Part shown: piece by piece, positions 5,655 to 44,565 of the stretch
How the letters are laid out: every line of letters begins with the position of its first letter
Numbering within the stretch: the stretch's first letter is position 1
Assembly: GCA_944472155.2 (NCBI GenBank)
Contig: OX235275.1
Coordinates: forward strand, 58,297,228 to 58,361,227
Length of the DNA: 64,000 bases
Origin: Trichobilharzia szidati
Lineage: Eukaryota; Platyhelminthes; Trematoda; Strigeidida; Schistosomatidae
Reading direction: 5' to 3'
Position numbers and translations under genes: made by a program
The notes under the pieces: generated by a model
Told to the model about the DNA's origin: nothing
The model's database searches: none
Seen by the model: only the letters and a program-made list of their open reading frames with translations

Positions 5655-5995
5655 GCAAATCTGACTGGTAAAATTCAGTCTGCACCAAAGATAGGACTTG
5701 GCACATCACACTAGTTAGTTACTAGTGTCCAATCACAGTATCCAAAACAGTCTTACAGAAGGTCAATCGCGAGTATGAATAGCTCAGTGGTGACGTCTCT
5801 GACTGCAGTACTCACTGAGTGACGCCGGTTTGAACCTCAGAAGGGACATGAATTCCTTCAAGGCTGCAGATACGCCTAACTGACTGGTGAGTGCTAGCTG
5901 GCAAGAAACCTAGGTGAGGCGAGGCTTCCTACCAATCGCCTTCAACCATCTCACATCATCTAATATAGAAAGTATTTGTATTCACCTCCTAATTG
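5655..5995 (+). repeat. SINE-B, tRNA-headed
   Basis: A tRNA-like head lies at about 5778-5850: A box TAGCTCAGTGGTGACG and B box GGTTTGAACCTC. It is followed by a body with 'cagatacgcc' and 'ctagctggcaagaaacctagg'. Upstream, 5655-5770 holds the 3' body of another unit ('cattgcaaatctgactgg' to 'tagtgtccaatca'), so this is a partial dimer. The tandem-duplicated unit A starts at its B box. Confidence 0.75.
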
Positions 5996-6364
5996 TTTGG
6001 ATTTCATACCCCTCGAAACGGCTCGGCGGTAGAAATCCTGACAACAGCACAAGGCAGCACGAGTTAAATTATCGTGGAGGATGTTAGTGTATTCATGGGT
6101 GCTGTTATGCCTCGATGAAAAATACCAGTAAGTAAGAGACCTAGTTCCACGACTTCCTATCAGTCATTTCTAACAGAAGGTATCTAAAATCACTTTCAAC
6201 TATATTTTGTTTCATTAACTGTTCATTCATTATGTCACGAATAATTTTTTTCATGAGCATAACTCTCCCTTGCTTATATCTCTAACATGACAACAGAATT
6301 CTGAGAAAAGCTTTAATCAGTGTACATGTTTGATTAGCTACTGAAGAAAAGATCTTGTGAAAAA
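5996..6364. repeat. unit A unique spacer
   Basis: This spacer contains 'aaacggctcggcggtagaaa' and 'catgggtgctgt'. It is repeated with substitutions at 12450-12829. No coding evidence is seen. It is part of the duplicated unit and not a separate known element. Confidence 0.55.
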
Positions 6365-7263
6365 TATTGGTCGGCTCGGAACAAGTCTGATTCAAGTGTA
6401 GCAAAGCAAACTACAACTCGTTGGCTTGAAAAAGCCCTCGACCATATTGACAGCAAAATGATTGAAAAGCTGCGCCAACATTATGCAGCTCAGTGCGCCA
6501 AGTCTTTACCAACCTAATTCAATAGGTATATGACAATGCCACACGTCAGATGATCCAAAAACGAAAAACTCATAGAGGTTTCCGAAGTGAATACAGGAGT
6601 AAGACAAGGCTGACTGCCTATTATCACCGAGAATATCCTTAACTCTGGTGGACTGGATTATTAGGAAGACTGCGAGTAAGTAGCAAGAAGACAGAAATTC
6701 GTTGCACTGACTGATAAGAAGACTCTAGAAGATCTGGATTTCGCAAATGATAAATGTCTTATGTCACACAGACTTACAGATGAAAACCGAAAAACCGGCT
6801 GAAGAGGCTGACGGTGAAGATAGATTTCCGGGAAAACATAAAGTAGACGGAGGTGATGAAGGTGACAAACTGACAGCAACAACAACCAGCACTAATCACC
6901 ATCAGACGGAGAGACTTGACGGATGTTACTTCCTTCACCTATTATAGAAGCCCCACGGATCCGAACGGCAATGAAGAAGTTCATCTCTCTATGAAACCAG
7001 TTGTGAAAAATTTCTTAACTCAGCATAAAGAAAAAAATTCAAATCTTTAACACCAGTGTTAAGTTGGTCAGTACTTCTATGTAGGTCATAAACTTGGTAT
7101 TTTCGTCACGTAAAGCATTTCTAACCACCTAATGCAGACTTTTATCAACAGCTGCTTTCAATGGCACCATATTGAAGATGAAATGGCTAGCCAGAAAGAA
7201 TTAGCAACAAGAAAATCTGGAAGCAAACGATTCAAAGACTCCTCCTTCAATAAGGATGCCGAA
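6365..7263 (+). mobile_element. RTE-b LINE fragment in unit A
   Basis: Decayed RTE-b sequence: an RT region with 'ggcttgaaaaagccctcgac', a 'tatgacaatgccacacgtca' segment, a DLDFAN-like relic of the FADD motif near 6733-6755, and C-terminal remnants. The homologous fragment in unit B is 12830-13690. At 7264 it is interrupted by an antisense RTE-a and resumes at 8353. Confidence 0.7.
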
Positions 7264-7270
7264 ATGAAGG
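7264..7270. repeat. target-site duplication, left copy
   Basis: ATGAAGG precedes the antisense RTE-a. The right copy is at 8353-8359. Unit B has a single uninterrupted ATGAAGG at 13684-13690. Confidence 0.75.
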
Positions 7271-8352
7271 GTATTGTTATTATTATTGTTTATTTTAATT
7301 CCTGGAGGAACATAGAGCGTCTCCATTGCGTTCGGTTCTCTGTTAGAGTCTTCACCTGGTTCCAGGTCTGCCCACACGTTTTCATCTAATCTTCACATGA
7401 CCTCCTCCAAGTCACCCTCGCACTGACGACCAACTGGCCGCTTCCTTTTCGGATTCCATTCGAGGGCTTGTCTAGTGATGTCACTTGATGGTTTCCTCAG
7501 AGTATGGCCAGCCAATCAATCTCTATTTCTTCCTGCCTATTTGTTTCACAGTTGATTCCTGATGGGTTGGTTGGCCGACACAGATCCCTGTTGCTGATCT
7601 TTTCTAGCCATCTGATCTTGAGTATTGAGCGAAGACAGCTGTTGATGAAGGTGTGTAGTTTGTTCGGAGTGCCATTCATGATGCGGCGTCAAGTCTCTGA
7701 TCCGTATAGTAGCACTGAATTCACAGTGGATTTGAGAATCCGGATCTTATTTTCATGCTCACTGCTGTTGACCTTCACACAGACTTGAGAGCAATGAAAG
7801 CTTGTCTTGCTTTGCCGATCCTCGCCTTGATGTCCTCGTCAGTTACGTCTGCCTGTAGTTGAAACGATGCTTCCAAGGCAGGTAAAAGAGGTTGTTTCTT
7901 TCAGGTTCCTTCCATTTATGCTGACTGTTGTCTGTTGTTAATGTTGGTGCTGTCACTCAGGAATCTTCATCACCTCTGTTTTCTCTATGTTCAACTGAAG
8001 TCCTATCTTTGATGTTTCTTCTGTTAACTTGTTGCTTTTCGCTTGCATATCTTCCAGTTTGTGGGGAATCAGACATATATCATCGGCGAAGTCTAGATCC
8101 TCCAAGTGTTTTGTGTGAGTCCATTTTATGCCTGTTTCCTCATTGCCCACTGTTTGTCGCACTATCCAGTCTACTGCAATCGGGAAAATCATTGGTGATA
8201 GCAGGCAGCCGTGTCTTAATTCCATCTTTACTTTGAAGGATTTCGTACGATTTCCATTGTGGATTACTTGGCATGCAGCATTGTCGTACAACTGTTGGAT
8301 GAGATGTATAATTGTCCGTGGCACCCCGTAGTAGCAAAGCAGTTGCCAAAGG
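7271..8352 (-). mobile_element. RTE-a (SR2-like) LINE, 5' truncated
   Basis: On the minus strand the frame at 8375-7953 reads LWQLLCYYGVP, then VDWIVRQTVGNEETG and IKWTHTKHLEDLDFADD, which includes the RT catalytic FADD, then QLNIEKTEVMKIPE. Downstream, in other frames, are SINGRNLKETTSF-like and C-terminal segments, with a TATTGTTATTATTATTG tail at the plus-strand left end. It is about 1.08 kb, truncated within the RT domain, and frameshifted after the QQ-rich segment. Unit B preserves the empty site. Confidence 0.87.
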
Positions 8353-8359
8353 ATGAAGG
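8353..8359. repeat. target-site duplication, right copy
   Basis: Second ATGAAGG copy, at the truncated 5' end of the antisense RTE-a. It is followed by 'atatggatgggac', as in unit B at 13691. Confidence 0.75.
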
Positions 8360-8800
8360 ATATGGATGGGACCAAATCTGAGAAGACTGCTGGGTTACTT
8401 CCTGCACCAGAGCCTTATTAGGATTCTGAGTGTGAAACGAATAGTTCGTCATCCGAATATGACGCAGAGAGGAGTGTATCAGGAGAAAATGAAGGCTTAT
8501 ATGGGCAATCGTTCACTCAGCTAAACAAGACTAAAGAGGATATTTCGAAATGCAGATGCATTGTTGAAGCTTTATTTTCCACTCGAAAAAAGGGAATTAT
8601 GATATAATAATAAATGTGATTCCTACAACAGCGCCAGCACCATAATAAAAAGCTTATATATACATATAATTGGCTTTAGAATTTACTTGGAATTTCTACA
8701 TCTTAAAATCCTTTGGAAGATGTGTGTTCGTACTATATTCTTGACCCTAATTTATACTTAGCCTATACCTTAGTTATGCTCTATATTGGTGGACGGTGAC
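8360..8800 (+). mobile_element. RTE-b 3' end and flank, unit A
   Basis: This stretch is almost identical to 13691-14115. It encodes a decayed RTE C-terminal end (GQSFTQLNKTKEDI and CIVEALFSTRK are readable near 8495-8590), the counterpart of the conserved 'AEALCSSRN' end. It is followed by AT-rich DNA. The near-identity with unit B contrasts with the diverged segment upstream. Confidence 0.65.
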
Positions 8801-8804
8801 TAAC

Positions 8805-8871
8805 AGTTGAATCCAGGATGCACATTTCGTCCTATTTGGGAATCGTCATCTGGATGTACCTGCATCTAAAT
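8805..8871 (-). ncRNA. Sm-alpha type 1 hammerhead-like relic
   Basis: On the minus strand: a GGTACATCCAG stem I strand, a corrupted core (ATGACGATT where CTGATGAG is expected), loop CCCAAATA, GGAC, the conserved GAAA, then TGCATCC and TGGATTC. This order matches the natural hammerhead described from Schistosoma satellite DNA. The damaged CTGATGA box suggests it no longer cleaves. Confidence 0.7.
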
Positions 8872-8876
8872 TGAAT
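8867..8876. repeat. target-site duplication of PLE1, left copy
   Basis: TAAATTGAAT flanks PLE1 on the left. The right copy at 10198-10207 reads TAAACTGAAT. The empty site in unit B is TAAATTGAAT at 14198-14207. Confidence 0.75.
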
Positions 8877-8986
8877 GGGAAATGGGCTCCCCATTGGGTC
8901 CCATTCTATCTGATTTCTTTCTAAGTAGGCTATAAAATGGACCTCTGAACAACCTTATCAGTAAGCTCTCATTTTATTGCCGATAT

Positions 8987-9244
8987 ATGGATGATACCTT
9001 TATTCTTTGTGATAATGGTTCCGATAGGGGTACAATAATTACTGAATTCAATGAAGTATATTCGGCGGCTATGAAATTCACATGCGAGGAGGAATCCCAA
9101 AACAGAATCGCTTTCCTGAATGTTCTCCTCACAAGAAAACCAGATGGTAGCGTAACAAAAGAAATTTGCATAGAAAAAGTACATGGACAGGACAATATAC
9201 AGATTTTCACAGCTTCGTTCCTTTCAAGTACAAAAGAAATTTAG
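8987..9244 (+). CDS. PLE1 reverse transcriptase end (fragment)
   Basis: This open frame carries the RT active-site region: it begins at the MDD of RYMDD and continues with AFLNVLLTRKPDG, the conserved strand after the palm in PLE RTs. The true frame shifts near 9170 (after VTKEICIE), so the last roughly 20 residues are out of frame. The ATG is internal to the RT and is not a real start. Confidence 0.7.
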   Translation: MDDTFILCDNGSDRGTIITEFNEVYSAAMKFTCEEESQNRIAFLNVLLTRKPDGSVTKEICIEKVHGQDNIQIFTASFLSSTKEI

Positions 9245-9687
9245 TGAAGACCCTTAGCCACGGAGTTAGAGCTATATGCTCAGAAGAAGTAATTGAAGAT
9301 GAATTAAGCATTGTATATGATACTTTGATCGAAAATAGCTATCCTGAAAAATGTATCAAGAAACATATGACAAAGAAAGCCGAAAAGGACTACCCACTAT
9401 CTGTTAACAAGAAGCCACTTTATATACGACTACAATTCATGGGCGATATACCAAGCGAGTTAATTACGAAGAAATTAAGAAAATCAGTTCAAAGAACTTT
9501 TAATGCTGGCGAACTACATGTATTATTCTCTACAAGACCGATGGTGCTACCTCGACTGAAAGATGAAGTACCTAGACTAGCCACTTCAAATTGTATTTAT
9601 CAATTCAACTGCGCTTGTGGAGCGAGTTATGTTGACCGTTGCTCTACGAACTTGATTTTTCGTGCTCGAGAGCATATCCCACTGTGA
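9166..9687 (+). CDS. PLE1 linker and GIY-YIG endonuclease (fragment)
   Basis: After the frameshift this 173-residue frame holds VPFKYKRNLVKTL, the linker (NSYPEKCIKK, YIRLQFMGD), and the endonuclease start with CIYQFNCACGASYVDR and RAREH. The domain nicks target DNA in PLE retrotransposition. Glycine of YIGR is replaced by D, and a TGA cuts the protein before the C-terminal part, which is still readable to about 9897 (HLEQTSHKASV, AIHLKQPVLCVQKK). Non-functional. Confidence 0.75.
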   Translation: MHRKSTWTGQYTDFHSFVPFKYKRNLVKTLSHGVRAICSEEVIEDELSIVYDTLIENSYPEKCIKKHMTKKAEKDYPLSVNKKPLYIRLQFMGDIPSELITKKLRKSVQRTFNAGELHVLFSTRPMVLPRLKDEVPRLATSNCIYQFNCACGASYVDRCSTNLIFRAREHIPL

Positions 9688-10116
9688 TCAAGCAAAGATG
9701 TAGTTAAAACTATTAACACCTCGATATTAGACCATCTGGAGCAAACCAGTCACAAAGCCAGTGTGGAAGAATCCTTCTCCATAATATACCGGGTGCCTAA
9801 CAAACTACCAAAATCGTCGAAGCACCACATGCTCCAAACAGCAGAGGCTATCGCAATTCACCTCAAACAACCAGTGCTCTGTGTTCAAAAGAAATAAGTC
9901 CAGCCCCTACTACTTCCCTGGCCCTCAGTGGAGACTCTAAATTCATGAATTTGTACTATTACCTTTCCTAATTCTCCTGGCATTCAGTTTATTTTATGTT
10001 GATGTTGTTCAGCTGTAATTTATCAATATTACTGATTCAGTGTTATTTAAACAACATTAATGTTGTTCATAACACTAATTCATTTATTCACTATAATGTA
10101 TATAAAACTGTAAATC

Positions 10117-10160
10117 CTGATGATGAATTTATCGAAAAGAGTACTCTTTGTTCCGTGTCC
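10117..10160 (+). ncRNA. PLE1 3'-end hammerhead-like motif
   Basis: CTGATGA (10117-10123), a 10-base spacer, GAAA (10134-10137), then the self-complementary AGAGTACTCT. Equivalent order occurs at the 3' ends of PLE2 (16779-16815) and PLE3 (40723-40760). Hammerhead motifs are known in PLEs. The helix II pairing here is weak, so activity is uncertain. Confidence 0.45.
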
Positions 10161-10197
10161 ATTCTTTGGAAAACATTAATGGGCATTTTTGATCAGT

Positions 10198-10207
10198 TAA
10201 ACTGAAT
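10198..10207. repeat. target-site duplication of PLE1, right copy
   Basis: TAAACTGAAT, one mismatch from the left copy at 8867-8876. It is followed by 'taaataattactgac', as in unit B. Confidence 0.75.
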
Positions 10208-10224
10208 TAAATAATTACTGACAC

Positions 10225-10440
10225 CTATCGCACAACTGGTGGGGGCTCTGGTGGTCCAAGTGGTCCAGTGGATAACGCTTTAGCGTTTGAAACTATGGGC
10301 ACTGGGTTGGAGCCTCGGTAAGAACACCATCACCACCACCAACCACCAACCAGTCCCAAATAGGACGAAATGTGCATTCTGGATTCCACTGCTAGTCAAT
10401 ATTCACCAGCTGCCTTGAAGTTATATGCCCAGAAGTCGTC
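10225..10440 (+). repeat. Sm-alpha type 1, tRNA head and hammerhead relic
   Basis: A tRNA-like pol III head (A box TGGTCCAGTGGATAACG near 10257, B box GGGTTGGAGCCTC near 10306) is followed by helix II GTCC-CAAATA-GGAC (10353-10366), GAAA (10367-10370) and TGGATTCCACTGC. The stem I strand and CTGATGA box, partly kept in unit B (14351-14373), are replaced here by CAC/ACC repeats, so this copy has lost half of the ribozyme. Confidence 0.75.
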
Positions 10441-10574
10441 GAAGAATCTGCACAAGAAGCCGACAGACATGTCAACCTAAGATTGGGCACACCAGTTCAA
10501 TTACTCGATGGTAAAATCAAAATTTTCTATAGTTTGGTTTGTAAAGGTTAGTTATATTTTTACGAGTTGATCAC
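10441..10574. repeat. duplicated spacer
   Basis: Sequence from 'agaatctgcacaagaagc' through 'atggtaaaatcaaaattttc', repeated almost exactly at 14456-14595. No gene motif seen. Confidence 0.5.
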
Positions 10575-10872
10575 GGATTGGTATCAGTCAGAGAACCATT
10601 GAAAACCCACCAGGGAGTACTGGACAGCTGCTGTTTCATCCTAGTTTGGGAATCATCGATAGTACGCACCCACTCCACAGGTGGTTCTAACCCAGGACCT
10701 TCCGGTTACAAGGCAAGCTCGTATACCATTCAGCCACTGGGACCTGATTCAGTGACCAACCCATGAATTCTAACTTCTACCAATTCGTGATTTATTGCAA
10801 CCCCAACCATTGTCGTTGGTGGTACATCCATCCACACACGTGACATCTAATTGGACCTCACTGGTCACGACT
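10575..10872 (-). repeat. Sm-alpha type 2 element, antisense
   Basis: The minus strand has the tRNA-like head (GTCCCAGTGGCTGAATGGTA and GGTTAGAACCAC), then a hammerhead-like tail with TCCCAAACTAGGATGAAACAG and 'ggttctctgactgat'. A 62-codon open frame on the plus strand across it is identical to that in 14599-14787 and is not a gene. It is effectively identical to unit B 14596-14892. Confidence 0.75.
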
Positions 10873-10905
10873 GATATCAATCCGTGATCAACTCGTAAAA
10901 ACATA

Positions 10906-11315
10906 ACTAACCCTTACAAACCAAACTATAGAAAATTAATTTGATGCTCGCTAGTGACTTGCTACAGGATGGCGTTTCCTGGAGTTCTAGTGAAAAGTCG
11001 TGACCAGTGAGGTCCATCCAGATGTCACGTGTGAGGATGGATGTCCCACAGACGACACTGATTGGGGTCACGCTAAATCACGAATTGGTAGAAGTTAGAA
11101 CTCATGGGTTGGCCATTGAGGAGTCGGGTCCCAATGGCTGAATGGTATACGAGACAGCTTGCTTTGTAACTGGAAAGTTCTGGGTTCGAACCACCCGTGA
11201 AGTAAATGCGTACTGTCGATGATTCCCAAACTAGGATGAAACAGTAGCTGTCCAGTATTCCCGGGTGGGTTTTCCATGGTTCTCTAACTGATATCAATCC
11301 GTGATCAACTCGTGC
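10906..11315 (+). repeat. Sm-alpha type 2 element present only in unit A
   Basis: Starts with 'ggagttctagtgaaaagtcgt' at about 10978, has the tRNA-like head near 11125-11195 (CCCAATGGCTGAATGG, GGGTTCGAACC), the relic core CGATGATTCCCAAACTAGGATGAAACAG (11217-11243), and ends 'ctctaactgatatcaatccg'. It sits next to the antisense copy at 10575-10872, forming an inverted pair. Unit B lacks the block, through loss there or gain here. Confidence 0.75.
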
Positions 11316-11884
11316 AAAAAATCAAAACTGAATTAAATTTGCCTTCTATTATTTTCTGAAAATAAAATTCCATTGACATATTTAAAAGTATATTGTATGG
11401 GTATTTGAATAGCATCAAAAATGCATGACTAGTGTACCTAACACACTCTTATCCACTTATAACATGGATTGCCTTAAACTACTGAGTGCAGTCATTATAT
11501 CAGGTGGTAAGTATGCTCTCTCTCTCTATCTCTGCTTAACTTCTCTCATGAGCCTATCATAGCATGACAGGTAAAAAAAACGATGTACTGTTTTCATTGG
11601 CAGTCTTCAACAATAAATCCCACATACGCTACTCAGCTTGCTGTCAATAAAACAGTTAGCATAGTCAGTGACACTTAAGGTTTTACGCGCTCATATAGAA
11701 ATCTATTGACATTACTACATGCTGTGAATAACACTAGGCATGAAGCCATTGTTATTATCGTTGGTGTAATCGTGTATAATTAAGAAAAAGCAAGTTAGTG
11801 GGGAAATCGCTTCTCGTAAGTTCACCTCAAATCTGTTCATTTATTCAAGGAATTTATACATAGAAGTATTCACTTTGATTGGAC
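11316..11884. repeat. duplicated AT-rich segment, unit A
   Basis: About 0.6 kb repeated at 14921-15488 with few differences. Contains a CT-rich patch at 11517-11530. No coding or RNA gene evidence. Confidence 0.55.
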
Positions 11885-12230
11885 ACTAGTCACTAACTAG
11901 TGTACTGTGTGTCTAGTCCTTTCTTTGGTGCGCACAGAATTCTATCAGTCAGGTTTGCAATGTGGCCACCATTCTAGGTAGCTCGCCATCATAGTACACA
12001 TTGATTTGATGATATTAGATGGTTTGAGGCAATCGGCAGGGAGCCGCACCTGACCTGGGCTTCGTGCTAGCTGGCACTCACCAGTCAGCAAGTCAAGTGT
12101 ATCTGCAACCTTGATAGAACTCATGTCCCTTCTGAGATTCGAGCCTGCGTCACCCTGTGAGTACTGCAATCAGAAACGTTAACACAAATGAACTATCCAG
12201 GCTCGCGACTGACCTCCTGTAAGACTGTAT
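11885..12230 (-). repeat. SINE-B, antisense, empty PLE2 site
   Basis: A minus-strand tRNA-like head lies near 12130-12210 (B box GATTCGAGCC on the plus strand, relic of TAGCTC). The body runs to 11885. The stretch GAATTCTATC at 11937-11946 is the uninterrupted counterpart of the PLE2 target in unit B. Confidence 0.75.
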
Positions 12231-12449
12231 TGGATAATTTGTTTGAACACTAGTAACTAGTGTGATGTGCCTAGTCCTTTTTTGGTGCAGACTGCATTCG
12301 CGAGTTCGAATCTCATTAGAGACATGAGTTCCTTCGGGGCTGCAGATACGCATTGCTGACCAACTGGTGAATGGCAACTAGCACGAAAACCAAGGTCAGT
12401 TGAGGCTTCCTGCTGATTGCCTTCAACCAACTAACATCATGAAATATAG
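12231..12449 (+). repeat. SINE-B at the unit A/B junction
   Basis: A piece of antisense SINE-B body (12235-12292) is joined to a plus-strand copy that starts at its B box (GTTCGAATCTC, 12304) and runs through 'cagatacgcattgctgacc'. With the antisense copy at 11885-12230 it forms an inverted pair. Unit B starts here. Confidence 0.7.
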
Positions 12450-12829
12450 AAAGTATTTGTATTCACCTCCTAATTGTTTGGATTTCATACCCCCAAAACG
12501 GCTCGGCGGTAGAAATCCTGACTACAGCACTAGGCAGCACGAATTAAATTATCATAGGGGATGTGAGTGCATTCATGGGTGCTGTCATGCATCGCTGAAA
12601 AATACCAATAGCTTAGTTCCATGTCTTCGTACCAGTCACTTATAGCAGAAGGCATCTAACATTACCTCCAACTATATTCTGTTTGCCTAACTGTACATTC
12701 ACTGTGTCATGAGTAATTTCCGTTAGCTTTCCCTTGCTTATATCTCTCGCTTGACAACAGGATTCTAATCAAAGCTTTAATCAGTATACATATTTGGTTA
12801 GCTACTGAAGAAAAGATCTTGTGAAAAAT
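12450..12829. repeat. unit B unique spacer
   Basis: Diverged counterpart of 5996-6364, containing the 'aaacggctcggcggtagaaa' segment. No gene recognised. Confidence 0.5.
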
Positions 12830-13935
12830 ATTGATCGGCTCGGAACAAGTCGGATTCAAGTGTAGCAAAGCATACACAGATCAAACTACAACTCTGTGCA
12901 TCATCATCATCGTCGAACAGACCATAGACATCGTTGGCTTGAAAAAGCCCTCGACCACAGTGATAGCAAAATGATTGGGGAGCTGCATCAACATCATGCA
13001 GCGCAGAGCGCCAAGTCTTTATCAACCTAATTCAATAGGTATATGACAATGCCACACGTCAGGTGATCCACAAAGAAAAACTCAGAAAGGTGTTCGAAGT
13101 GAATCCAAGGATAAAACAAGGCTGGCTGCCTATTATCACCGATGATATTCCTAACTGTGATGGGCGGGACTGTGCGTCAGACTGTGAGCAGTGAGAAGAC
13201 AGGAATACGTCGGACCTATAAGAAGACTTTAGAAGATCTGGTTTTCGCAGATGACTCATATTCAGTAACACGCAAACTCGAAGACATGCAGATGAAACCC
13301 AACAAACTGGCTGAAGAGGCTAGCTGCAATAATAGGAGTTCAAGCGGACATGGAGAAGACAGAGATGATGAAGATAAACAAACAACCACAGCTGGCTCCA
13401 ACCGATACCGGCGGAATTACCTAGGCAACGTTGTTTCGACTATAGGCTGAACAGATCTCAAAGGCAGTGCAGCAGTTCATCGTTATGAAACCAGCTGTGA
13501 AACATTCTGAATTCAGCACAAAGAACAAAATTCAGATTTTCAACAGCAGTCTTCAGTCAGTCAGCTCTTCATCACGTCAAGCATTTCTAACACGTTCTGG
13601 AATTTCATCAACAGAAAGAATTAGCAACATGAAAATCTGGAAGTGAACGAATCGAAGACTCTTTCTTCAATGAAGATGCCGAAATGAAGGATATGGATGG
13701 GACTAAATCTGAGAAGACTGCTGGGTTACTTCCTGCACCAGAGCCTTATTAGGATTCTGAGTGCGAAACGATTAGTTCATCATCCGAATATGATGCAGAG
13801 GAGAGTGTATCAGGAGAAAATGAAGGCTTATATGGGCAATCGTTCACTCAGCTAAACAAGACTAAAGAGGATATTTCGAAATGCAGATGCATTGTTGAAG
13901 CTTTATTTTCCACTCGAAAAAAGGGAATTATGATA
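12830..13935 (+). mobile_element. RTE-b LINE fragment in unit B
   Basis: Decayed RT and C-terminal sequence: an interrupted palm with WLEKALDHSDSK-like and 'gacaatgccacacgtcagg' segments, VFADD (near 13242-13256, the RT catalytic motif), LEDMQMKPNKLAEEA, then remnants to the 'ccactcgaaaaaaggg' end. Unlike unit A, no RTE-a interrupts it: GAAATGAAGGATATGG is continuous at 13681-13696. Confidence 0.72.
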
Positions 13936-14119
13936 TAATAATAAATGTGATTCCTACAACAGCGCCAGCACCATAATAAAAAGCTTATATATACATATAA
14001 TTGGCTTTAGAATTTACTTGGAATTTCTACATCTTAAAATCCTTTGGAAGATGTGTGTTCGTACTATATTCCTGCCTCTAATTTATACTTCGCTTAAACC
14101 TTAATTTTGCTCTTTATTT

Positions 14120-14192
14120 GTGGACAGTGACTCACAGTGGAATCCAGGATGGACATTTTGTCCTGTTTGAGAATCGTCATCCGGATGTACCT
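14120..14192 (-). ncRNA. Sm-alpha type 1 hammerhead-like relic
   Basis: Minus-strand counterpart of 8805-8871: a GGTACATCCGG stem strand, damaged core, a CAAACAGGAC-like helix II region, AAAATG and TCCTGGATTCCACTG. It faces the plus-strand relic at 14351-14416. Confidence 0.65.
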
Positions 14193-14197
14193 GCATC

Positions 14198-14207
14198 TAA
14201 ATTGAAT
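14198..14207. other. empty integration site for PLE1
   Basis: A single TAAATTGAAT continuous with 'taaataattactgac'. In unit A the same spot is split by PLE1 with the motif duplicated. Confidence 0.8.
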
Positions 14208-14224
14208 TAAATAATTACTGACAC

Positions 14225-14440
14225 CCGTCGCACAAGTGGTGCTGGCTCTAGTGGTCCAAGTGGTCTAGTGGATAACGCTTTAGCGTTTGAAACTATGAGC
14301 ACTGAGTTTGAGCCTCGGTGGGAACACCATAACTGACTTACTGTGGAATGCAGATACATCCAGCTACCAAGCAGTCCCAAATAGGACGAAATGTGCATTC
14401 TGGATTCCACTGCTAGTCAATATTCACCAGCTGCCTTGAA
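14225..14440 (+). repeat. Sm-alpha type 1, tRNA head and hammerhead relic
   Basis: A box TGGTCTAGTGGATAACG (near 14264), B box GAGTTTGAGCCTC (near 14308). The hammerhead region at 14351-14416 has stem I strand ACATCCAGCTACCA, a damaged core (AGCA for CTGATGA), GTCC (14374-14377), loop CAAATA, GGAC (14384-14387), GAAA (14388-14391), and the distal strand TCTGGATTCCACTGC. This is the best-preserved type 1 layout in the window, but the catalytic box is lost. Confidence 0.78.
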
Positions 14441-14595
14441 GTTATATGCCCAGAAGTCGTCGAAGAATCTGCACAAGAAGCCGACAGACATGTCAACCTG
14501 AGATTGGGCACACCAGTTCAATTACTCGATGGTAAAATCAAAATTTTCTATAGTTTGGTTTGTAAAGGTTAGTTATATTTTTACGAGTTGATCAC
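14441..14595. repeat. duplicated spacer
   Basis: Near-exact repeat of 10430-10574. No gene motif. Confidence 0.5.
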
Positions 14596-14892
14596 GGATT
14601 GGTATCAGTCAGAGAACCATTGAAAACCCACCAGGGAGTACTGGACAGCTGCTGTTTCATCCTAGTTTGGGAATCATCGATAGTACGCACCCACTCCACA
14701 GGTGGTTCTAACCCAGGACCTTCCGGTTACAAGGCAAGCTCGTATACCATTCAGCCACTGGGACCTGATTCAGTGACCAACCCATGAATTCTAACTTCTA
14801 CCAATTCGTGATTTATTGCAACCCCAACCATTGTCGTTGGTGGTACATCCATCCACACACGTGACATCTAATTGGACCTCACTGGTCACGAC
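14596..14892 (-). repeat. Sm-alpha type 2 element, antisense
   Basis: Copy of 10575-10872, with the tRNA-like head on the minus strand and a hammerhead-like tail with TAGGATGAAACAG. The second Sm-alpha copy of unit A does not follow it. Confidence 0.75.
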
Positions 14893-15535
14893 TGATATCA
14901 ATCCGTGATCAACTCATAACATAATCAAAATTGAATTAAATTTGCTCTCTATTATTTTCTGAAAATAAAATTCCATTGACATATTTAAAAGTGCATTATG
15001 TGGGCATTTGAAGAGCATCAAAAATGCATGACTAATCTATCTACCATACTTTTATCCACTTATAACATGGATTACCTTAAACTACTGAGTGCAGTCATTA
15101 TATCAGGTGGTAAGTATGCTCTCTCTCTCTATCTCTGCTTAACTTCTCTCATGAGCCTATCATAGCATGACAGGTAAAAAAAACGATGTACTGTTTTCAT
15201 TGGCAGTCTTCAACAATAAATCCCACATACGCTACTCAGCTTGCTGTCAATAAAACAGTTAGCATAGTCAGTGACACTTAAGGTTTTACGCGCTCATATA
15301 GAAATCTATTGACATTACTACATGCTGTGAATAACACTAGGCATGAAGCCATTGTTATTATCGTTGGTGTAGTCGTGTATAATTAAGAAAAAGCAAGTTA
15401 GTGGGGAAATCGCTTCTCGTAAGTTCACCTCAAATCTGTTCATTTATTCAAGGAATTTATACATAGAAGTATTCACTTTGATTGGACACTAGTCACTAAC
15501 TAGTGTGATGTGCTTAGTCCTTTCTTTGGTGCAGA
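14893..15535. repeat. duplicated AT-rich segment, unit B
   Basis: Near-identical to 11316-11936. Ends in SINE-B body sequence just before the PLE2 target. Confidence 0.55.
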
Positions 15536-15547
15536 CTGAATTCTATC
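15536..15547. repeat. target-site duplication of PLE2, left copy
   Basis: CTGAATTCTATC, repeated exactly at 16827-16838. The SINE-B body continues on either side. Confidence 0.85.
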
Positions 15548-15599
15548 ATAGCATAAACTGAAACTCACACTGCAAGAAAATGGATATCCACAGAGCTTC

Positions 15600-16076
15600 T
15601 TGAAAAAGTATATGTCAATACCTACAGACAGGATAAAGCTGGATACCGTAAAAAAGAAACCTTTGTATCTAAAGTTAAGTTACAAAGGGGAAATTGCAGC
15701 TGACATTCTAAAATGTCGACTAAATAGAGCAGTAGATAGAACATTTCCTGCAGCTAAACTGGTACTCAACTTCTCAACTAAACCAGTACTCACACAGCAA
15801 GTAAAGGATAAATTACCAAAGATGGCCTCATCAATGTGTATCTATGAATTCAACTGCTCATGTGGAGCTAGTTACATTGGCCGTACTCAGAGGGCTTTAT
15901 CCATGCGCGCGCATGAGCATGTACCTGTATGGTTGAGTAAAGGAGTAACCAAGGGTGTAAATAGTGCAGTCTTAGCTCACTTGGTAGATACTGGACACCC
16001 AATAAAACTTGACCAGGTGTTCTCAGTTATTTACCGCGTTTCTAGTAATCTATCTACGTCTCCTATCAGTAGCTGA
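15600..16076 (+). CDS. PLE2 linker and GIY-YIG endonuclease (fragment)
   Basis: A 158-residue frame. Residues 1-75 are the linker (KKKPLYLKLSYKGEIAADI, VDRTFPAAKL). The endonuclease begins at MCIYEFNCSCGASYIGR (about residues 78-95), with the conserved Arg and His-Glu region RALSMRAHEH, then HLVDTGHPIK. In PLEs this domain nicks the target. Motif residues are intact here, unlike PLE1. A frameshift near 16060 moves the C-terminal helix (AEAVAINTRRPSLCLQKK) to the next frame. The ATG is internal to the original protein. Confidence 0.8.
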   Translation: MKKYMSIPTDRIKLDTVKKKPLYLKLSYKGEIAADILKCRLNRAVDRTFPAAKLVLNFSTKPVLTQQVKDKLPKMASSMCIYEFNCSCGASYIGRTQRALSMRAHEHVPVWLSKGVTKGVNSAVLAHLVDTGHPIKLDQVFSVIYRVSSNLSTSPISS

Positions 16077-16778
16077 AGCGGTGGCAATTAATACCAGAAG
16101 ACCATCTCTTTGCCTACAGAAGAAGTATGTTCATTCACTATTTTTACCTTGGCCTACAATAAAGCCAACAAATTCTCCATTAACACTATAAACTCCTTTC
16201 ACAATTTTCTTTTCTTCTTTTATTCCTCTGTTTCATTGACAAACGTTCATTTTCGAATTTTATGATTTCGCGACCTTTCTTATGATTTTATTAACTTAGG
16301 TTTAAGTAGTGCTTTTCTAAGTTGCTATCGTATTTACAAAATCCTGTTCATTCCACCTCATTATATTCATTAATATTACTTGACAATCATTCACCAATAG
16401 TGCTTGTAATTTTACACCATATCATCGTTATTATTTGACAATCATTCTTATTTTTGTTATTTTCAACCTTGAACTTATCTCTAGACCACCCCATTCGTTG
16501 GTTTATTTTCATATTGTCTCACACACCCTGACTACACTCACTCTCGAAACCTGTATTTTCTGTTGACTATATTTATGTATATACACACATCATTAAATTA
16601 AATTAAATTACTTGATCTCATTTTGTCCCATGTTCTCATTGACCATGCATATTAAAAAACTAACTGACTATTGTTCCATCCCATCTTACACTTGTTCCAC
16701 AATACACTTTCTGATGTGATTCTACTTGACTTTACTGGCTATTGTATGCTTAAATTATTGGATTTATAATTGTTGAGC

Positions 16779-16815
16779 CTGAAGAAGAATTTATTGAAAA
16801 CAATTGTTCGCTCTA
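16779..16815 (+). ncRNA. PLE2 3'-end hammerhead-like motif
   Basis: CTGAAGA (16779-16785), a short spacer, GAAA (16796-16799), then AACAATTGTT, which is self-complementary. Same arrangement as in PLE1 and PLE3. The core departs from CTGATGA at one base. Confidence 0.4.
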
Positions 16816-16826
16816 AATATTTTGTT

Positions 16827-17135
16827 CTGAATTCTATCGGTCAGGTTTGCAATGTGGCCACCATTCTAGGTAGCTCGCCATCATAGTACACATTGATTTG
16901 ATGATATTAGATGGTTTGAGGCAATCGACGGGAAGCCTCACCTGACCTAAGTTTCGTGCTAGCTGGCACTCACCAGTCAGCAAGTCAAGTGTATCTGCAA
17001 CCTTGATAGAACTCATGTCCCTTCTGAGATTCAAACCCGTGTCACACTGTGAGTACTGCAGTCAGAGACGTTAACACAAATGGACTATCCAGGCTCGCGA
17101 TTGACCTTCTGTAGGACTGTACTGGATATTTTGAC
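16827..17135 (-). repeat. SINE-B, antisense, remainder after PLE2
   Basis: Continues the SINE-B copy split by PLE2, starting with the right target duplication (16827-16838). The tRNA-like head on the minus strand is near 17025-17095. Counterpart of 11937-12230. Confidence 0.75.
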
Positions 17136-17326
17136 TGGACACTAGTAACTAACTAGTGTGATGTGCCTAGTCCTTTTTTGGTGCAGACTGAATTCTTTAG
17201 TTAGAATCTCATAAGGGACATGAGTTCCTTCAGGGTTGCAGATACGCTTTGCTGACCAACTGGTGAATGGCAACTGGCATAAAACCTAGGTTCAAGTTCT
17301 CCAGCCGATTACCCCCAACCATCTAT
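17136..17326 (+). repeat. SINE-B at end of unit B
   Basis: An antisense body piece (17136-17190) joined to a plus-strand piece from a degraded B box (GTTAGAATCTC, 17200) to 'accatctatc'. Same layout as the A/B junction at 12231-12449; it marks the start of a third, aborted unit. Confidence 0.65.
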
Positions 17327-17352
17327 CATATATATATATATATATATATATG
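17327..17352. repeat. (AT)n microsatellite
   Basis: An alternating AT run of about 24 bases at the point where homology to the duplicated unit stops. Confidence 0.9.
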
Positions 17353-36985: not shown

Positions 36986-36999
36986 ATCGAAAGAACCAG

Positions 37000-37325
37000 T
37001 GACCAGTAGGGTGCAGCAGGTCGGGTGTGAGGACAAATACTCGCCGAAGACATTGGAGAGGGGTCGCGCTATGTCGTGAATTGGCAGAAGTTAGAATTCA
37101 TGGGCCATTCGATCGGGTCCCAGTGGCTAAATGGTATACGAGCTCGCCTTGTAACCAGAAGGTCCTGGGTTGGAATCCCAGTGGGTGTGTACTGATGAAG
37201 AGTCCCAAACTAGGACGAAACATCTGTCCAGTACTCCCAGGTTTTCCAATGGTTCTCTAACTGATGTCAGCTCATGATGAAATCCTGTAACCAATCAAAT
37301 CCCTACAAACCAACACTTGAGAATA
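37000..37325 (+). repeat. Sm-alpha type 2 element, well preserved
   Basis: 5' part GGGTGCAGCAGGTC, tRNA-like head CCCAGTGGCTAAATGG (37119) and GGGTTGGAATCCC (37168), then the hammerhead-like core: CTGATGA (37192-37198), three extra bases, helix II GTCC-CAAACTA-GGAC (37202-37216), GAAAC (37217-37221). Ends 'ctctaactgatgtcagctc' and 'accaacacttgag'. It is the best type 2 copy, but the insertion between box and helix would disturb the fold. Confidence 0.8.
37192..37221 (+). ncRNA. hammerhead-like core of Sm-alpha type 2
   Basis: CTGATGA, AGA, GTCC, loop, GGAC, GAAAC. Canonical spacing has no AGA between CTGATGA and helix II. The insertion is shared by most type 2 copies here. Confidence 0.6.
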
Positions 37326-44339: not shown

Positions 44340-44565
44340 TTTGACACTAGTAACTAGTGTAATGCGTCTAGTCTTCTCTTTGGTGCAGACTGAATTCTAT
44401 CAGTCAGGTTGTAATGTAGCCACCATTCTAGGTAGCTCGCCATCATGGCGTACGTTGTTTGTGGTGCAGATACGCCTTGCTGACGAGTGCCAACTAGCAC
44501 GAAACCTAGGTCCAAGGCTTCCTGCCGATTGCCTCCAGCCATCTTACATCGCTGTACATATGTAT
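44340..44565 (+). repeat. SINE-B fold-back fragment
   Basis: Antisense body (44345-44450) joined to sense body (44465-44560, 'cagatacgccttgctgac' to 'cctgccgattgcctcc') with both heads missing. Compare the junctions at 12231 and 17136. Confidence 0.65.

Follow-up and report, generated by a model that had tools for sequence, protein, structure and literature searches.

Two collinear units in tandem

The window analyzed here is a stretch of 64,000 nucleotides from the schistosomatid trematode Trichobilharzia szidati (C5:58297228-58361227 of the 1.11-Gb assembly), and this report concerns a tandem pair of repeat-rich segments in it, units A and B, together with the repeats at their edges and the four large heterologies that separate their aligned parts (Table 1). 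The two units are collinear over ~3.6 kb, as an earlier note on this DNA had stated: self-comparison of positions 4-19 kb gives the six successive A/B matches 5828-7077/12304-13570, 7192-7274/13612-13694, 8335-8876/13668-14207, 10198-10898/14198-14919, 11287-11947/14891-15548 and 11937-12437/16829-17329, and separate alignment of five segment pairs gives 355 mismatches over 3,534 ungapped columns. The heterologies are RTE-a, PLE1 and an extra Sm-alpha-like block in A, and PLE2 in B; the limits of the inserts carry an uncertainty of a few bases. While the collinearity stands, that description of the units missed a third unit start at 17200, after B, the non-uniform similarity of A and B, and a decayed, older RTE on the plus strand that belongs to the ancestral unit (~12841-13587 in B, with its C-terminal part near 8500-8600 in A). 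This old RTE fragment, hammerhead-bearing repeats, an Sm-alpha-like repeat and the R repeat make up much of the unit.

Two parts of the unit were used in genome-wide searches, which score 40 candidates. For 8335-8876 the full-length places are two among the 41 matches listed, and the other 39 fall within query positions 440-534 (the hammerhead part); for 12440-13660 the first ~400 positions are matched elsewhere by unit A alone among the matches listed, and the remaining rows begin at position 402 or later, in the old RTE part. Because the non-repeat sequence of these two parts was found, among those matches, only in A and B, the units appear to be one locus duplicated in tandem rather than dispersed copies of an element, a conclusion that is well supported for the two parts searched. 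No further unit is present in the flanking 10 kb upstream and downstream of the window; the matches there are to dispersed repeats and to RTE and PLE pieces, and none is to 8335-8876.

No host gene or function was recognized in the unit (the Pfam comparison covered three frames, all of them from inserts), and three open frames considered as host exons were rejected as follows: 8422-8607 resembles the C-terminal RTE pieces in the window, 10396-10551 lies mostly inside a dispersed repeat adjoining a hammerhead, and the short signal-like frame 11413-11562 has openness as its only support. Each unit has one minus-strand and one plus-strand match to the type I hammerhead. The minus-strand match of A, at 8811-8855, is high (52.1 bits) and its plus-strand match is eroded (28.7); in B the minus-strand match is slightly under the Rfam threshold (33.2) and the plus-strand match, 14358-14405, is slightly over it (35.7). 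Two more type I hammerheads above threshold (37189-37234 and 44474-44518) are in other repeats of the window.

Table 1. Features of the duplicated locus, in window coordinates
Feature	Position	Strand	Remarks
Unit A	5828..12303	+	Self-comparison and segment alignments
Unit B	12304..17199	+	Self-comparison and segment alignments
RTE-a	7265..8351	-	Truncated non-LTR (long terminal repeat) element with reverse transcriptase match; A only
PLE1	8873..10202	+	Element fragment; A only; flank repeats
PLE2	15549..16828	+	5'-truncated element; B only; flank repeats
Extra Sm-alpha-like block	10899..11315 (approximate limits)	-	A only; gain in A or loss in B
Putative conversion tract 1	A 8472..8740, B 13803-14071		269 columns, 0 differences
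Putative conversion tract 2	A 10351..10894, B 14372-14915		544 columns, 1 difference; repeat sequence
Putative conversion tract 3	A 11472..11903, B 15075-15506		432 columns, 1 difference
Putative conversion tract 4	A 11937..12035, B 15538-15548 + 16840-16927		99 columns, 0 differences; adjoins PLE2 junction
Putative conversion tract 5	A 12061..12140, B 16953-17032		80 columns, 0 differences
Full R+ repeat (293 bp) across left edge of unit A	5672..5964	+	Last ~137 bp are 5828-5964
Inverted copy R-, end of unit A	12004..12298	-	Self-comparison
Inverted copy R-, end of unit B	16896..17194	-	Self-comparison
Hybrid R+ at A/B junction	12304..12445	+	Switch between 12386 and 12398
Third R+ copy, after unit B	17200..17329	+	Stops in TA run; right-hand parent of the proposed crossing-over

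Reciprocal insertions and their relative ages

The uninterrupted target of each heterology is present once in the opposite unit. RTE-a is bounded at both ends by the 7 bases atgaagg, of which B has a single copy; PLE1 is bounded by taaattgaat and taaactgaat (10 bases, one mismatch), with a single taaattgaat in B; and PLE2 is bounded by gaattctatca and gaattctatcg (11 bases, one mismatch), with a single gaattctatca in A. These junction strings bear out the earlier claim that RTE-a and PLE1 are confined to A, and PLE2 to B, each opposite an intact target.

RTE-a sits between two pieces of the older RTE, in the orientation opposite to theirs, and its frame 7953-8414 matches RVT_1 (PF00078) with an E value of 8.4e-11, starting at profile position 95 of 205. 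We take it to be a member of the RTE clade. Its reverse transcriptase match, truncation and short flanking repeat are like those of RTE-type non-LTR retrotransposons, from which it differs in being a dead fragment. PLE1 and PLE2 are presumably Penelope-like elements, judging by their motifs; one frame of each (9151-9687 in PLE1 and 15552-16073 in PLE2) was compared with Pfam and had no match there, and a PDB search with the PLE1 frame returned a single match, to a sigma factor (E 0.1). The 5' truncation of PLE2 is indicated by 17 of its 19 relatives, which extend upstream with common sequence, and the sequence 3' of the relatives is much alike in 8/19, as in tandem or partial-tandem copies. 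Compared with the Penelope-like elements of PMC11167929, PLE2 is alike in its 5' truncation, in the fixed 3' end of its family and in its tandem- or partial-tandem-like relatives, whereas PLE1 and PLE2 differ in that their tested frames have no Pfam match. Several PLE2 relatives abut an inverted piece of the same element (for example C1:33176883-33177906, C1:69233785-69235478 and C2:52908455-52909543), as though an inverted tail had been joined on at insertion.

The divergence of each insert was estimated by counting private changes, that is, sites where seven relatives are all alike and the copy is different. The relatives were the 7 other loci returned by the genome search for RTE-a; 7 of 43 other rows for PLE1, taken from the top rows that reach the 3' end (three higher-ranked rows were skipped); and the best 7 of 51 other rows for PLE2, for which a second count was made with 19 relatives. 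Private divergence is 64/954 (6.7%) for RTE-a, which is 9-10% from its 7 relatives, 62/1,221 (5.1%) for PLE1 and 42/1,179 (3.6%) for PLE2 (27/904 with all 19 relatives; one PLE2 relative, L059, slightly exceeds it with 32/909). The corresponding tree branches are 0.103, 0.068 and 0.045. Half the A/B distance, measured in the diverged islands described below, is 0.101 over all islands; it is 0.112 for the 5' island alone and 0.068-0.075 for the two that lie between tract 1 and tract 3. By this divergence clock PLE2 clearly inserted after the duplication. For PLE1, and most of all for RTE-a, such an order is compatible with the clock by a small margin, and the empty sites decide. The earlier statement that the insertions followed the duplication is thus upheld by the empty sites and by private divergences that compare with ~10% per A/B lineage, the margin being small for RTE-a.

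Can the three families also be ranked in age? The empty sites only put each insertion after the duplication, so a ranking needs the divergences of the elements themselves. With equal clocks assumed across families and no adjustment for source-copy divergence, RTE-a is clearly older than PLE2 (z 3.2), and the other two orderings are not clear (z 1.6 and 1.8). The local relative dating of three retroelement families that the earlier note had read from the reciprocal sites is therefore recovered in part, through the divergences and for RTE-a and PLE2 only.

A mosaic of near-identical tracts and diverged islands

The similarity of A and B was analyzed with a two-state model on 3,548 columns in which each gap run was counted once. 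It resolves five tracts that total 1,424 columns with 2 differences (0.0014) and islands that total 2,124 columns with 377 differences (17.7%); the log-likelihood is -1077.7 for two states (best path) vs -1205.7 for one rate. The longest identical A/B run is 415, and in 2,000 shuffles the longest run was at most 132 over all columns and at most 283 when the 5' block was left out. Gene conversion typically leaves short, sharp, scattered tracts, and the mosaic has the pattern of recent gene conversion acting on an old duplication. The earlier note, correct as to collinearity, overlooked this mosaic, and because of it overall A/B identity is unusable as a clock. Divergence is far higher in each of the three inserts than in the tracts, so conversion probably came last. 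Consensus polishing may have removed a few differences from the tracts, and is unlikely to have made such a mosaic from copies 18% apart.

It is very unlikely, in our estimation, that the near-identical tracts are instead exons or regulatory DNA kept by selection on an old duplication. Part of the open frame 8422-8607 is within tract 1, and the left edge of tract 3 is straddled by a short one that has a donor-like gtaagt, as might be expected of exons, but the former resembles other RTE copies of the window in their C-terminal part, and the tract limits are sharp and out of register with the open frames. Of the five tracts, it is tract 2 for which selection is a poor explanation: it is made up of dispersed repeats, and their other copies of at least 100 bp in the compared DNA are at most 87% identical (at least 13% apart), while A and B differ there at 1/544 positions. 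Tracts 1 and 3 have no other match of at least 100 bp in the compared DNA, so conversion in them is argued from the pattern, and for tract 3 this leaves some room for selection. Interlocus gene conversion between Drosophila duplicates (PMC2588116) is alike in its tracts of near identity between diverged stretches; the tracts here differ in being largely in repeat sequence and in lying between four large heterologies.

Two of the 10 tract ends are within 12 columns of one of the 4 heterologies, a number reached by 74/3,548 circular shifts (2.1%), and 1/10 is within 4 columns, which is reached by 354/3,548 shifts (10%). That retroelement insertions end conversion tracts, and that reciprocal insertions in tandem copies progressively stop homogenization and let the copies drift apart, is a doubtful extrapolation from these numbers.

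The extra Sm-alpha-like block of A has an identical 27 bases (actgatatcaatccgtgatcaactcgt) at both ends, and B has one copy of them with one change. The earlier note had set the block aside together with the inserts; it may have been gained by A, but could equally have been lost from B between the 27-bp direct repeats. We put an ancestral block deleted from B by recombination between these repeats at only slightly less than an even chance: the repeats flank the block in A and are present as one copy in B, and 27 bp is long for the target duplication of such an element, but insertion with a long target duplication fits equally well. The block (10899-11315) contains no type I hammerhead match and for that reason is not classed as an SMalpha-type SINE (short interspersed element); the hammerhead at 37189-37234 of the window is inside a related copy at 36999-37259. 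The Sm-alpha-like repeat of A, at 10521-11320, is a long inverted pair, and its plus copy has the inverted ends gttgatcacggattggtatcagtc ... gactgatatcaatccgtgatcaac with one mismatch.

Origin of the duplication and order of events

A ~137-bp piece of the R repeat, R+, is present three times in direct orientation, at 5828, 12304 and 17200, which are the two outer edges and the junction of the units. The copies at 12304 and 17200 have a near-identical start point, and each follows an inverted copy, R-. If crossing-over between the copies at 5828 and 17200 made the duplication, the middle copy is expected to be a hybrid that is like 17200 on its left and like 5828 on its right, and a single switch in the copy at 12304 does explain 33/40 informative sites (15/16 to the left of the switch are like the 17200 copy and 18/24 to the right are like the 5828 copy). 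Because B starts with this hybrid and a third copy follows at 17200, the duplication probably arose by unequal crossing-over between flanking direct R+ copies, and we consider this its most likely origin. The tandem duplication of the earlier note is thus retained, with the addition of a repeat-mediated junction that it had overlooked. Repeat-mediated unequal crossing-over (non-allelic homologous recombination, NAHR) is discussed for the mouse and rat Abp clusters in the abstract of PMC3669608; the likeness is in the direct repeats at the unit edges and the hybrid repeat at the junction, and the differences are that no gene is recognized in the unit here and that this duplication is old (17.7% divergence outside the tracts). 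R repeats of both orientations are clustered again at positions 9060-9710 of the 10 kb downstream of the window.

Replication slippage, or template switching near the inverted repeats, could have made the duplication instead, with later conversion responsible for the hybrid R+. R+ and R- are head to head at the junctions, an arrangement that favors template switching, and conversion was probably active at the locus; nevertheless a single crossing-over suffices for both the order R+ unit R- R+ unit R- R+ and the hybrid, and we regard this other route as unlikely, with perhaps a minor share of the probability. We hold it to be very improbable that the structure is an assembly artefact, a tandem join of two haplotypes of one unit that is heterozygous for the insertions. 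Inverted repeats are abundant in the region, which could favor such a join, but the islands are 17.7% apart, far above ordinary alleles, and yet the tracts are near identical; at this divergence joined haplotypes are unlikely. In addition, the inserts bear 3.6-6.7% private changes, the unit edge is a three-copy repeat whose middle copy is a hybrid, and no separate single-unit contig is among the matches listed for 8335-8876 and 12440-13660.

The account that we favor, and consider quite probable, is therefore one of an old duplication by crossing-over, separate insertions and late conversion patches, as follows: Unequal crossing-over between flanking direct R+ copies would have duplicated ~3.6 kb of repeat-rich DNA, with the hybrid R+ as its trace at the junction and the copy at 17200 as the right-hand parent. 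Unit A would then have received RTE-a and PLE1, and unit B PLE2, presumably by target-primed reverse transcription. Much later, gene conversion would have copied patches of 80-544 columns between the units.

Several points weigh against this account. The half distance of the lower islands is not above the private divergence (0.067) or branch of RTE-a and is about equal to the branch of PLE1; these islands alone would not date either element after the duplication, so their empty sites carry the argument. Island divergence is itself uneven, 19.4% in the 5' island and 12.5-13.5% in the three others of at least 160 columns, so some islands may contain older conversions. The comparison for tract 2 leaves out matches shorter than 100 bp, among which is a 69-bp inverted match within A with 95.7% identity. 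For the hybrid R+ the shuffle p (~1e-4) is optimistic, because each gap column is counted on its own and because the sites include those at which the 17200 copy passes into the TA run; counted by hand up to 12434, the right side of the hybrid drops to 11/16. Finally, the structure is known here from the assembly and not from the underlying reads.

Every step proposed for this locus is of a known type, and the locus is a new instance of known processes. Its use for dating element families is limited by the single copy of each family, but it is compact, and the duplication, the three retroelement insertions and the recent conversion can be ordered tentatively from one assembly. It also carries a warning that the average identity of tandem copies is a poor clock where conversion acts.

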